NCBI GenBank assembly: GCA_029570205.1
Contig: JAKQSI010000020.1
Span: forward strand, 1 to 5,719
Length of the DNA stretch: 5,719 nt
Direction: 5' to 3'
Origin: Candidatus Omnitrophota bacterium
Lineage (GTDB): Bacteria > Hinthialibacterota > Hinthialibacteria > Hinthialibacterales > JAKPRU01
Within the stretch, counting starts at the first letter, position 1, and the number at the start of each line of letters is the position of its first letter. The notes under the pieces are model-generated. The model saw only the letters and a list, made by a program, of their open reading frames with translations, ran no database searches and was not told where the DNA came from. The translations under genes were made by a program, and so were the position numbers. Positions 921 through 5,719 of the stretch are shown piece after piece.

Positions 921-2762
921 ATGCTGACATCGGAAATCGACTTGGCGGCGCTCCGGCAGGACTTGCTGCTGATGCAACAGACCATCGGGCAGGATATTCC
1001 GATGGGGAAGAAATTCCATTGTGTTGATCGGAGACACGGGGACGAAAACGCATCCGCGAATCTGTACGAAAAGGACGGCGCAATTCGGTATCGTTGTTTC
1101 GGCTGTGGACTAGATCAGGACGTAATCGGCATGAGGATGCTACTTGCCGAGGAAACATTTCCGCAGGCGGTGGCGTATTTGAGCAACGGTAACGGAGGGA
1201 CGCCGCAGGAGCCACGATCCGTTTTACCTGATGGAAACCCTTGCCCGAAGCCTGATCGTTCGACTACAGGCACGACCGGGACTGGATTTTCGAGCCTGGA
1301 AGAATTATCGGCGGCGGTGGCCAAGTCCGGCGCGATTGAATCTGTCTATCATTACAATTCCGAATCCGCAGACCATCTCATTGTCTTTCGAGTCAAACAG
1401 AAATTCAGCAAGACATTCCGGCAGTGTCGGCGCGAGGGTGGCCGTTATTATTTCGGCGCACCAATGAAACCTTACTCTATCTATCGGCGCGATCTCATTT
1501 CCACAGCGGAAACCGTTATCGTGTGCGAGGGTGAAAAGTGCGCGGACGCAATCAACGGCTTGCAGATTCCGGGCATTGCGGCGACTACGTCACCCGGCGG
1601 CGCGAAAAATGCCAAAGGTGCAGACTGGTCTGTTCTGTCTGGCAAGAAACTGATTCTCTGGCCGGATAATGACGAGCCGGGGCAGGGATACGTCCGGGAC
1701 GTCTTGGATTGCCTGAGAGCGTTGCCGACACCGCCGCGTGAAATCCTGGAAATCGACCCAGCGGCGCTAGCGCTGAGTGAAAAAGAGGACGTATACGATT
1801 ACCTGCAATCGGGCCGGAGCTTGGAGGACGCCTTGGCGGTTGCGGAACCGATACAGGAGCCGGCGAAGGAACCGGGGTTGAAAGTCTACACGCTTCACGA
1901 GTACATAAAGCTGGAACTCCCACCAAAGGAAAAAATACTTGACCCTATTCTTGACCGGGCAAGCCTTTCGATGGTTCACGCTTGGCGCGGTATCGGGAAA
2001 ACTTTTTTTGCGATGTCTTTGGCGCATTCTGTTTCCGTAGGGGAGCCGTTCCTGTGTTGGAACGTTCCGAAAGCACGCAGAACGCTTTATTTTGAGTCCG
2101 AAATGAAGGGCGGCGACATTCAGGAGCGACTTTGTCATATTGCTTATGCAAGCGACAAAACAACGCGGGATAATTTCCTCATTCTTCCAGGTGACCAGCA
2201 AGATGGGCCGTTGCCGAACCTTGCGGACCGGAAGGGGCAACAGGCCATTGACCAACACTTGGATGGGGTCGAATTCTTTGTGATTGATAACCTCTCCACC
2301 CTGTCACGCGGCGGGCCGGAAAACGATTCGGAATCCTGGAACGAAATCGGCGGATGGCTTCTCAGTTTGAGAAAACGGGGTATTGCCGTCATGCTGATCC
2401 ACCATAGTGGCAAGGCCGGACTGCAACGGGGGACAAGCAAGCGAGAGGACACCCTTGACGTTGTAATCAACCTTCAACGACCGAAAGAATACCGACCAGA
2501 ACACGGCTGTAAGTTTGAGGTTGTGTTCGAGAAATGCAGGTCAATTTCCGGCGCGGACGCGGGGGGTATTGAGGCAACATTGGAGATCGACCAGGGCCGG
2601 GCTTTGTGGACTTGGCGAACCCTCACAAGCCGGTTGATCGACCAGGTGCGGGAGCTGGACGAGGAAGGGCTTACGCAGCGGCAAATTCAAAAGGAACTTC
2701 GGATCGGCCTTGGCACAGTCAACCGATATTTGAAACTGGTAAAGGGTAAGGACACAGAATGA
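921..2762 (+). CDS. Primase-helicase (zinc finger, Toprim, RecA-fold ATPase, C-terminal HTH)
   Basis: This 613-residue replication protein should make RNA primers and unwind the element's origin. Domains in order: a CHC2-like zinc finger with C34, H39, C59 and C62 in the context RYRCFGCG; a Toprim catalytic fold with E203 in VCEGEKCADA and D249/D251 in WPDNDEPG; a proline-rich linker near 308-318; then a RecA/AAA_25 (RepA-type) ATPase. The ATPase has Walker A AWRGIGKT (354-361, K360), Walker B FFVIDN (452-457, D456), an LIHHSGK motif (492-498) and RGTSKREDTLD (503-513). Residues 583-609 (LTQRQIQKELRIGLGTVNRY and what follows) form a helix-turn-helix that may bind the origin. The first Walker A glycine is Ala, which I believe is common in this family. 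All key residues are present, so it looks intact. The heptamer array begins 7 bp after its stop. The domain architecture is secure; origin binding by the HTH is an inference. Confidence 0.93.
   Translation: MLTSEIDLAALRQDLLLMQQTIGQDIPMGKKFHCVDRRHGDENASANLYEKDGAIRYRCFGCGLDQDVIGMRMLLAEETFPQAVAYLSNGNGGTPQEPRSVLPDGNPCPKPDRSTTGTTGTGFSSLEELSAAVAKSGAIESVYHYNSESADHLIVFRVKQKFSKTFRQCRREGGRYYFGAPMKPYSIYRRDLISTAETVIVCEGEKCADAINGLQIPGIAATTSPGGAKNAKGADWSVLSGKKLILWPDNDEPGQGYVRDVLDCLRALPTPPREILEIDPAALALSEKEDVYDYLQSGRSLEDALAVAEPIQEPAKEPGLKVYTLHEYIKLELPPKEKILDPILDRASLSMVHAWRGIGKTFFAMSLAHSVSVGEPFLCWNVPKARRTLYFESEMKGGDIQERLCHIAYASDKTTRDNFLILPGDQQDGPLPNLADRKGQQAIDQHLDGVEFFVIDNLSTLSRGGPENDSESWNEIGGWLLSLRKRGIAVMLIHHSGKAGLQRGTSKREDTLDVVINLQRPKEYRPEHGCKFEVVFEKCRSISGADAGGIEATLEIDQGRALWTWRTLTSRLIDQVRELDEEGLTQRQIQKELRIGLGTVNRYLKLVKGKDTE
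2059..2068. repeat. Palindrome GGAACGTTCC inside the primase-helicase gene
   Basis: This exact 10-bp palindrome also occurs at 2831-2840 within the main array. Here it encodes part of WNVP. It may be a distant extra site for the array-binding protein or a chance match. Confidence 0.35.
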
Positions 2763-2788
2763 AAAATTCATGTTCCACCCGTTCAACG

Positions 2789-2828
2789 TGTTCCATGTTC
2801 CATTTTAAGGAAATGGAACATTGGAACA
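2789..2828. repeat. 40-bp dyad built from four heptamers
   Basis: TGTTCCATTT (2796-2805) and AAATGGAACA (2811-2820) are perfect reverse complements around the 5-base loop TAAGG. A further TGTTCCA (2789-2795) and TGGAACA (2822-2828) extend each arm to 17 pairs with a single unpaired T at 2821. No T tract follows, so it is not a normal terminator. It could extrude as a cruciform or serve as paired protein-binding sites. Confidence 0.75.
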
Positions 2829-2830
2829 CA

Positions 2831-2849
2831 GGAACGTTCCGGTGGAACG
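2831..2849. repeat. Nested palindromes GGAACGTTCC and CGTTCC-GGT-GGAACG
   Basis: A perfect 10-bp palindrome (2831-2840) shares its right half with a second dyad, CGTTCC (2835-2840) and GGAACG (2844-2849). The two folds are mutually exclusive. The element lies immediately right of the 40-bp dyad and is part of the same array. Confidence 0.65.
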
Positions 2850-2864
2850 GAACATGGAACAGAC

Positions 2865-3410
2865 ATGGAACAGACCTTACTTAAGTCATTGGTATTACAG
2901 AAGTTAGAGCGGAACAACGATTGGAACACGGGTGGAACGCAAGCCGAAGATCCGTGTTCCATTGACCCTCAAAAAAATGAGGGGGGTGGAACACCCGTTT
3001 TTGACCGTTCCGGGACCCCAAAACCGAACCATTCCGACCCCGTTTCCGGGCCGATTGCGGAACCCTCTCCGAGCGGGGCGGTTCCCACGGTTCCAAGCGA
3101 TCCAGTCCGTGAGTCCATTGCGCGGCTGGTCGAATATGCGGCGCGGATCGGCGCGGGGCCGGTGGGCGAATTTCTTGAACGACACCCGCAGCAGTGGGCG
3201 GCTGTCGCCTTCGAGTATGACGGCATGGTGGCGCAACTTTCGGAAACCAAACCGGACGCGGATCGGGGCTTTGTCTCGGACTTGGCGGCGGAAAGTGTCT
3301 GCCTGTGGGTCCGGTTGGACTTCCTTCGGGAGATCGAAGGCGACACCTACCGGGCGAAAATGCACGGTCCGGGCGGGGTGTGGGATCGGTTGCGGAAGGG
3401 GGCGCGATAA
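2865..3410 (+). CDS. Hypothetical protein, first of two paralogous genes (origin-overlapping N-terminus)
   Basis: This 181-residue protein has two unlike halves. Residues 1-80 overlap the heptamer array and are low-complexity, rich in Pro, Gly, Asn and Ser, so probably disordered. Residues 84-177 form a helical domain (ARLVEYAARIGAGPVGEFLE, a PDADR motif at 130-134, then a Trp-containing helix) that is homologous to residues 73-163 of the next gene. I do not recognise the family. The start is uncertain: ATG 2865 has only a weak GGAAC upstream (2856-2860), and no other ATG occurs before the conserved domain. The frame is the same as that of the primase-helicase, and only the TGA at 2760 interrupts it. 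Its stop TAATG overlaps the next start, so the pair should be translationally coupled. Its place beside the origin suggests a replication-linked role, but that is a guess. Confidence 0.7.
   Translation: MEQTLLKSLVLQKLERNNDWNTGGTQAEDPCSIDPQKNEGGGTPVFDRSGTPKPNHSDPVSGPIAEPSPSGAVPTVPSDPVRESIARLVEYAARIGAGPVGEFLERHPQQWAAVAFEYDGMVAQLSETKPDADRGFVSDLAAESVCLWVRLDFLREIEGDTYRAKMHGPGGVWDRLRKGAR
2873..2909. other. AT-rich gap between heptamer triplets, candidate DNA unwinding element
   Basis: By hand count 24 of 37 bases are A or T in an otherwise GC-rich neighbourhood, and no heptamer falls here. It is flanked on the left by sites at 2843, 2855 and 2866 and on the right by sites at 2910, 2922 and 2933, all in one orientation and with the same 12- and 11-bp spacing. 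An AT-rich stretch bracketed by binding sites is what an origin melting region looks like. It also encodes residues 4-15 of the downstream gene if that gene starts at 2865. Confidence 0.45.
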
Positions 3411-3915: not shown

Positions 3916-4278
3916 ATGGCCACGATCAAAATTGAACCTTTACCCGAAGGAATGCCAATTCACCCGGCGTGTCTAATGTTTCCCATGCTCACCTTGACGC
4001 GGTATGCCGAATTTGTTGAAAACGTCCGGCAGTACGGGCAGATAGAACCTATCACCTTGTACGAGGGGCAGATCCTGGACGGCAAGATCCGCTACAAGGC
4101 GTGTGTTGACTTGGGGATCGAACCGATATTTCGAGTATATTCCGGCGACCCGTGGGCGTATGCTTGGAGCATGAACGGGGTGCGCGGCGATTTGACGGGC
4201 GAAGAGGAACAGCGGTATTTCATTCGAAAATACTTGGAAGAAAAACGCGCGGCGCAGGTAGCGCAGGAAAGACCATGA
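3916..4278 (+). CDS. ParB/sulfiredoxin-like N-terminal domain protein
   Basis: This 120-residue protein is almost only a ParB N-terminal (ParBc) domain of the phage type. Residues 15-23 (IHPACLMFP) match the usual opening, the middle carries a helix and GQIEPITLY, and the core motif ILDGKIRYKAC (53-63) matches the family's LDGRxR pattern with D55, G56 and R59. GDPWAYAWSMN (78-88) and GDLT (91-94) follow as expected. There is no helix-turn-helix DNA-binding domain of classic partition ParB, and no ParA is visible. Such stand-alone domains may bind or hydrolyse CTP or act as nucleases; which applies here is unknown. ATG 3916 has GAGG (3905-3908) seven bases upstream. Its stop overlaps the next start in ATGA. 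Confidence 0.82.
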   Translation: MATIKIEPLPEGMPIHPACLMFPMLTLTRYAEFVENVRQYGQIEPITLYEGQILDGKIRYKACVDLGIEPIFRVYSGDPWAYAWSMNGVRGDLTGEEEQRYFIRKYLEEKRAAQVAQERP

Positions 4279-4508
4279 ACGCGGCTAACAAGATTCCCAT
4301 ATTCAACTTTGAGCGTTCTGAAACCGAGCAAGTCCGGGGGACTGCCTGGCGGCACAGGGGGCGCAAATATCTGGACTGTCGGTTATTTGTTCGCAAGGGC
4401 GACAGGTGGATCGCCACGCGGGAGGGAATTACGTTTCGGGAACACGAGATCCAACGGCTACAAACGGCGGCGGAATTGGCGATAGCACTTCCCGTCAAGA
4501 TCGACTGA
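4275..4508 (+). CDS. PC4/p15-like protein, candidate single-stranded DNA binder
   Basis: This 77-residue protein starts at ATG 4275, overlapping the ParB-domain stop (ATGA), with GGAAAG (4266-4271) as binding site. Longer in-frame starts such as 4152 lie inside the previous gene. Residues 20-70 follow the PC4/p15 coactivator pattern: a strand with W25, then RKYLDCRLF (30-38) like the family's KYVDIR, then DRWIATREGITF (43-54) like the strand ending in KKGISL, then a helix HEIQRLQTAAELA (57-69). The usual Lys before Gly-Ile is Glu here (E50). PC4-fold proteins bind single-stranded DNA as dimers and act in transcription, repair or replication; a replication accessory role fits the operon. The match was made by eye over a short protein, so the family call is moderate. 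Confidence 0.6.
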   Translation: MNAANKIPIFNFERSETEQVRGTAWRHRGRKYLDCRLFVRKGDRWIATREGITFREHEIQRLQTAAELAIALPVKID

Positions 4509-5627: not shown

Positions 5628-5719
5628 ATGGCAAGACCGAAAACACCGTCGAACGTCTTGAAACTCAGGGGCACGTATCGCCGGGATCGGGATTCCGGCG
5701 GCAAGATCGAACCGGAACC
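5628..5719 (+). CDS. Phage terminase small subunit, P27-like (N-terminal fragment)
   Basis: The first 30 codons are visible before the window ends. The opening MARPKTPSNVLKLRGTYRRD is characteristic of P27-type phage terminase small subunits and their relatives, which begin with a basic Pro/Thr segment and an LRGT or LRGN motif followed by a charged, Pro-rich stretch (KIEPEP here). The protein recognises phage DNA and hands it to the large terminase for packaging. GAGGT (5618-5622) lies five bases upstream of ATG 5628. The gene follows a 110-bp gap with a possible own promoter. The rest of the protein and any large subunit lie outside the window. Confidence 0.72.
   Translation, partial: MARPKTPSNVLKLRGTYRRDRDSGGKIEPE

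Follow-up and report, generated by a model that had tools for sequence, protein, structure and literature searches.

A heptamer array behind a RecA-fold primase-helicase gene as the probable self-addressed replication origin of a phage-like element

The analysed stretch of DNA (the window) comprises an entire contig of 5,719 bp from a 4.39 Mb genome of 131 contigs, which belongs to a small phylum. It contains a dense array of TGGAACA/TGTTCCA heptamers at 2771-2993, and we consider it very probable that a phage or phage-like element starts its replication at this array, which would be read by the C-terminal helix-turn-helix (HTH) of the primase-helicase encoded upstream, gene and array together forming a self-addressed cassette. 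We infer the origin function because of the precedent of PICI, SaPI and P4 elements, the arrangement of the array in two clusters and the AT-rich gap between them. The preliminary description of this DNA had already proposed an origin made of iterons and bound by the HTH of the adjacent gene product, and the proposal gained strong comparative support from the recurrence of arrays behind homologous genes and from the co-variation of the array word with the HTH.

Exact heptamers occur ten times, all of them at 2771-2993 and none in the rest of the window when both strands are counted. The copies start at 2771, 2789, 2796 and 2955 on the minus strand and at 2814, 2822, 2855, 2866, 2922 and 2987 on the plus strand. 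This reproduces the ten copies in 225 bp reported before, and the chance expectation of about 0.03 matches given at that time agrees with 200 dinucleotide-shuffled versions of the full window, which contained a mean of 0.90 and a maximum of 4 exact TGGAACA words, equivalent to about 0.035 per 225 bp. The former count of at least five variants was reached only in part: at least four one-mismatch heptamers lie within the array (2843, 2848, 2910 and 2933), and a fifth is obtained only by counting AGGAACG at about 2831, which has two mismatches to TGGAACA. The word TGGAACA had been picked post hoc, and our control therefore let any six-letter word count. The best count in shuffled 400-bp regions was 3.25 on average and 7 at maximum (n=920 shuffles), and in the window GGAACA occurs 12 times within 300 bp. 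Chance or coding bias as the source of the array was ruled out by the shuffles together with the other gene ends analysed below.

The array begins with three minus-strand copies, followed by plus-strand copies, an AT-rich gap and a second cluster. The left cluster (2771-2872) includes the arrangement TGTTCCATGTTCCA-11 nt-TGGAACATTGGAACA and is similar to the layout of the TGGGACA copies in a homologous locus (L017), and the right cluster (2910-2993) contains further heptamers and variants. The gap of 37 bp between them (2873-2909) has an AT content of 63%, compared to 41% in the flanks, and is a candidate melting site. From 2865 onward the array overlaps the beginning of an ORF (2865-3410), and the gap also encodes the N-terminus of this ORF if its start is assigned correctly. 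Across the arrays, gaps were AT-richer by 9 points, with 46 of 61 exceeding their flanks (p=1.3e-6), which could also reflect ordinary intergenic composition. The window presents many short repeats of one word beside a putative initiator gene, as in iteron origins, and its 37-bp gap with 63% AT, which may be intergenic composition, stands at the place of an AT-rich unwinding element.

The gene in front of the array (921-2762, plus strand) codes for a protein of 613 aa with a weak CHC2-like Zn ribbon, a Toprim domain, a RecA-fold ATPase (AAA_25) and a C-terminal HTH. It matched Pfam AAA_25 with 1.6e-27 and PHROG 239 ("DNA primase/helicase") with 4.5e-27. The closest replicative helicases among solved proteins, as identified with the family profile, were RSF1010 RepA (9e-20) and the T7 gp4 primase-helicase (4e-13), and the fold of an AlphaFold2 model matched those of T7 gp4, Twinkle and RepA. 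The Toprim primase domain (residues ~198-266; 1512-1718, plus strand) gave a weak Pfam Toprim match besides PHROG 239, and its EGE and DND motifs are invariant across the family; the RecA-fold helicase ATPase domain (residues 330-500; 1908-2420, plus strand) was recognised by Pfam, profile and fold matches. Because a Toprim and a RecA-fold hexameric-helicase domain are both present, the protein fits the RecA-fold (AAA_25/RepA/T7 gp4-like) phage primase-helicases. As previously stated, the array adjoins a primase-helicase with a C-terminal HTH: the model contains a three-helix HTH at residues 569-609 (2625-2747, plus strand), with helices at residues 569-581, 586-593 and 597-609 and pLDDT values of 72-91 in this block, and we propose it as the reader of the array.

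Relatives of the protein were found using alignments of two to three sequences as queries. These were needed because a single protein, scanned against viral and genome collections, yielded no relatives; an alignment of eight sequences was too diverse. In a first set of 46 distinct viral homologues, an array was defined as a six-letter word present at least six times in the 400 bp that follow the gene. Arrays were present in 19 of the 46, and 14 reached at least eight copies. At the threshold of six copies, the controls gave one of 41 upstream regions, one of 91 other gene ends in the same contigs and four of 920 shuffles, and none of these controls reached eight. The recurrence of arrays behind homologous genes, which had been suggested as a check, was confirmed in an enlarged set, where 56 of 109 distinct viral homologues had a six-letter word repeated at least six times in the 350 bp downstream, with words that differed between them. 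Array starts lay at a median of 12 bp beyond the stop codon. Array-bearing named phages include Rhizobium RHph_X2_25 (CGTGACA, 16 copies), Idiomarinaceae 1N2-2 (GGTACA, 11 copies), Roseobacter CRP-821 and CRP-811, Wolbachia WOVitB, Salicola CGphi29 and Microbacterium OneinaGillian. The remaining 53 homologues, among them those of Caulobacter RW, Arthrobacter Tank, Mycobacterium Saguaro, Microcystis Mae-JY30 and BFK20, showed no array by the exact-word criterion, which speaks against the origin reading; some of them may be degenerate or truncated or may use another initiator.

All four of the closest homologues examined were followed by an array, and the word varied by lineage from the TGGAACA of the window. 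Behind the closest viral homologue (L253), TGAAAC(A) is repeated about ten times, and L173 (GTGAATCA) contains 15 copies of GAATCA in the context GTGAATCAA. A homologue in another phylum (L162) is followed by a CGGGACA array. The homologue L017 from a same-genus genome (G001:C291) carries TGTCCCA/TGGGACA directly 3' of the gene; inverted copies are followed by a short loop and a pair of direct copies, an arrangement similar to that of the window. Inspected by eye, the L017 element consists of an integrase, the primase-helicase, the array and then large PLD/helicase-like and methyltransferase-like genes, which look like defence cargo. Plasmid 2 of Nitrobacter hamburgensis (NC_007960; L170, 4019-4468) also contains what remains of an L017-type helicase, a C-terminal piece that includes the HTH and is 50% identical over 138 aa; it is flanked by CBASS genes on one side and a DNA methyltransferase gene on the other.

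The TGGAACA word by itself is not diagnostic. Searching for it alone retrieved many viral arrays, some beside other primase-helicases (DUF5906, VapE, AEP-TOTE) and some beside non-helicase genes. Some of these arrays (L022, L042, L059, L065, L024, L043, L023, L077, L080 and L084; 8-13 copies) have a different gene context, neighbouring either non-helicase proteins of about 200 aa or a terminase-sized ORF (~560 aa) 1-2 kb away. By eye and repeat scan, we further noticed primase-like genes of another type, which we take to be DUF3987-like, followed by an ACGAAAT/TTTCGT array in L016 (~2100-2265, minus strand) and by a GCCATAA/ATTAATGGC array in L163 (~1100-1400).

The relation between word and reader was analysed in two tight subfamilies by comparing word similarity with the identity of the recognition-helix segment while core identity was held constant. 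Partial Mantel correlations were r=0.51 (p=2e-4, n=15 proteins) for the first and r=0.56 (p=0.0016, n=10 proteins) for the second subfamily, values that come from small samples and do not amount to a full phylogenetic test. Core identity had no residual effect on the word in either subfamily once the HTH was known. In a sliding control over 44 and 48 protein segments, the median lay close to zero, and the top four predictors of the word all fell within the C-terminal domain; this was so for either family. Individual pairs illustrate the same pattern: the cores of L363 and L350 are only 41% identical, yet both share an SSNNAV helix and the word ATTCTC, and L333 and L342 have an NTSI-type helix and CGATAC in common, whereas L332, with a core 72% identical to that of L333, has a different helix and the word GCCACC. 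Shared coding does not explain the link between HTH and word, because the arrays typically start behind the stop codon. The co-variation of the word with the C-terminal HTH in homologues supports residues 570-613 as the putative array reader; the window's own protein lies outside both subfamilies, and its link between HTH and word is drawn by homology.

A natural swap was found in four cultured Roseobacter phages, whose helicase cores are at least 98.8% identical. CRP-821 and CRP-831 share one type of C-terminal domain and have GTATAAA arrays, while CRP-811 and CRP-823 have another type and CTACAAA arrays, the two domain types being 67-68% identical to each other. The positions of the sites match between both kinds of array and the sites are altered in concert, with a constant central AACCCTTTAGGGTT palindrome. 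CRP-823 is a mosaic with a CRP-821-like N-terminus (97%) and a C-terminus and array of the CRP-811 type; therefore, the C-terminal domain and the array move as a cassette. Linkage of the neighbouring HTH and array accounts for part of this co-segregation, but the concerted change of about ten sites would be harder to account for without a reader.

Inverted heptamers might also act as RNA or single-stranded DNA hairpins, such as a terminator, a processing site or a stem-loop origin of the pRN1 type, rather than as words read by a protein. The DNA strand indeed folds strongly (z -6.4), and in pRN1 a stem-loop located 3' of the primase-helicase gene serves as the origin (PMC4234260). Several homologous arrays (L213, L205, L173, L190 and L180), however, are almost one-directional and allow little pairing, which led us to set the RNA-hairpin idea aside; since there are also no Rfam matches and the word co-varies with the HTH, we regard hairpins as a barely credible explanation. 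A terminator-like hairpin (GGGTGGAACACCC plus GTTTTT; 2984-2996, plus strand) is formed around the last heptamer, a weak signal with two such hairpins found vs. 1.4 expected by shuffling. A palindrome of CCCTC-8 nt-GAGGG is located inside the array at 2966-2983 and is a possible counterpart of CCCC-n-GGGG palindromes elsewhere. Such C-rich/G-rich palindromes, often CCCCTTTAGGGG, occur within many arrays regardless of their word and were seen downstream of L177, L227, L270, L282, L327, L333, L342, L388 and L396; they were counted in 15 of 56 arrays, four of 53 array-less homologues and one of 97 upstream regions, and may be either terminators or an additional element of the origin, as a priming site or a hairpin. 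The cumulative GC skew, which had been recommended as a further check, lent no support within the window, where no switch was seen. Its signs were mixed among 13 long contigs, analysed over 15-20 kb each; in two of them (L370, L336) an extremum fell about 200 bp or less from the array.

At the proposed origin, the primase-helicase would bind the heptamers through its own C-terminal HTH, as suggested by the co-variation, and would assemble on the two clusters into one hexamer or two, as judged from SaPI Rep. The assembled protein may then melt the AT-rich gap and load itself as the replicative helicase, after which the Toprim domain would lay primers and the host polymerase would take over. HTH and array sites of such a self-addressed cassette of gene and origin would change together over evolution. 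An unlikely alternative is a purely regulatory role, in which the array, bound by the primase-helicase or by a partner protein, serves as an autoregulatory operator or silencer that controls the following gene, or as a locus for copy number or incompatibility, while replication starts elsewhere. Iterons often serve both as origin and in regulation, so both readings are compatible. The overlap of the array with the start of the ORF at 2865-3410 and the terminator-like hairpin fit regulation, and the co-variation of HTH and word indicates a reader at most, not an origin. Against regulation alone, the arrays sit behind the helicase gene and not in front of it, the genes after them differ between elements, and PICIs have a proven origin of this layout (PMC6092414).

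The ORF starting within the array (2865-3410, plus strand) codes for a small protein of 181 aa with no Pfam or PHROG matches, and similar-looking small ORFs come after arrays in elements of genome G001. Further downstream, a small protein (4275-4505) contains a PC4-like domain (E 5e-4, below the Pfam cut-off) and is possibly a single-stranded DNA-binding protein near the replication gene. A ParB-like protein encoded at 3916-4278, about 1 kb downstream, matches PHROG partition proteins (E 0.01-0.04), and 7-mer arrays could act as centromeres; the array might thus be a partition (parS-like) or packaging site for this or another protein of the element. We consider this highly unlikely, because the word follows the helicase's own HTH in homologues and because no ParB-like gene was noticed by eye near the array of the L017 element. 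At the end of the window (5628-5719), a truncated ORF of 30 aa begins with MARPKTPSNVLKLRGTYRRDR and has no family matches; we take it to resemble a P27-type terminase small subunit, and if it is one, the element would be a phage.

Self-loading helicases with an origin behind their own gene are already known from PICIs, SaPIs, SCC elements and P4. The literature searched, which covered few subscription papers, contained no description of the present origin class with a RecA-fold Toprim protein or of the co-diversification of HTH and word. Judging from sequence comparisons, the design appears to be widespread among phages, with differing words that are each matched to the HTH of their own motor. 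There is a reasonable likelihood of a large, mostly unrecognised class of phage replicons in which the RecA-fold primase-helicase is its own initiator, and HTH and array form a swappable address cassette with dozens of words. If so, these phages would offer a natural code table between recognition-helix residues and DNA words, and possibly an incompatibility system which keeps co-infecting phages apart. The origins of most phages, above all of uncultured ones, are not yet located, and an over-represented 6-8-mer behind a Toprim-AAA_25-HTH gene would point to the origin in a large fraction of them. This would carry the origin plan of PICIs and SaPIs over to a motor that is not homologous to theirs, and the naturally occurring combinations of HTH and DNA word would provide material for learning how HTH specificity shifts. 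Cultured pairs such as Roseobacter CRP-821 and CRP-823 make the idea directly testable.

PICI and SaPI origins are located immediately 3' of rep, contain two sets of iterons with an AT-rich stretch between them and can sustain the replication of a plasmid (PMC6092414), and SaPI Rep contacts the iterons through its C-terminal domain (PMC7581432). The SaPI/PICI rep-ori modules (SaPIbov1 Rep, SaPI5 Rep, EcCICFT073; SCCmec Cch2) share with the window the short iterons 3' of an initiator-helicase gene and the AT-rich stretch, and their reader is the C-terminal DNA-binding domain of the helicase, the same role as proposed for the HTH of the window. Their Rep helicases are of the DUF927 or D5 type, whereas that of the window has the AAA_25 fold of RSF1010 RepA and T7 gp4 and is joined to a Toprim primase. 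Because the helicase superfamily differs, we rejected a general membership in the SaPI/P4 group; no integrase was seen in the 5,719-bp contig. P4 alpha contains a Toprim-type primase and binds origin repeats by a winged helix, followed by unwinding and priming (PMC4234260). As proposed here, a single protein thus primes, unwinds and reads repeats, those of ori1/crr, with a winged helix at its C-terminus. The helicase of P4 alpha belongs to SF3, in contrast to the RecA-fold enzyme of the window, and repeat word and layout are also unlike: ori1/crr contains GGTGAACA iterons, which have GAACA in common with TGGAACA. RSF1010 oriV is relevant in that RepA is the closest solved helicase to the protein of the window, and RSF1010 likewise employs iterons and a dedicated primase. 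Iteron binding, helicase and primase functions are distributed there over three proteins (RepA, RepB' and RepC), whereas one protein apparently combines them in the window; a likeness to the RSF1010 system has also been remarked in PMC4234260. The primase-helicases of pRN1 (ORF904) and Bordetella phage BIP-1 likewise carry a C-terminal winged helix and have an essential region directly 3' of the gene, but they consist of an AEP primase and an SF3 helicase and use a stem-loop origin without iterons. The best reading of the module is an anatomy like that of the PICI/SaPI and P4 origins, but with a different, RecA-fold motor.
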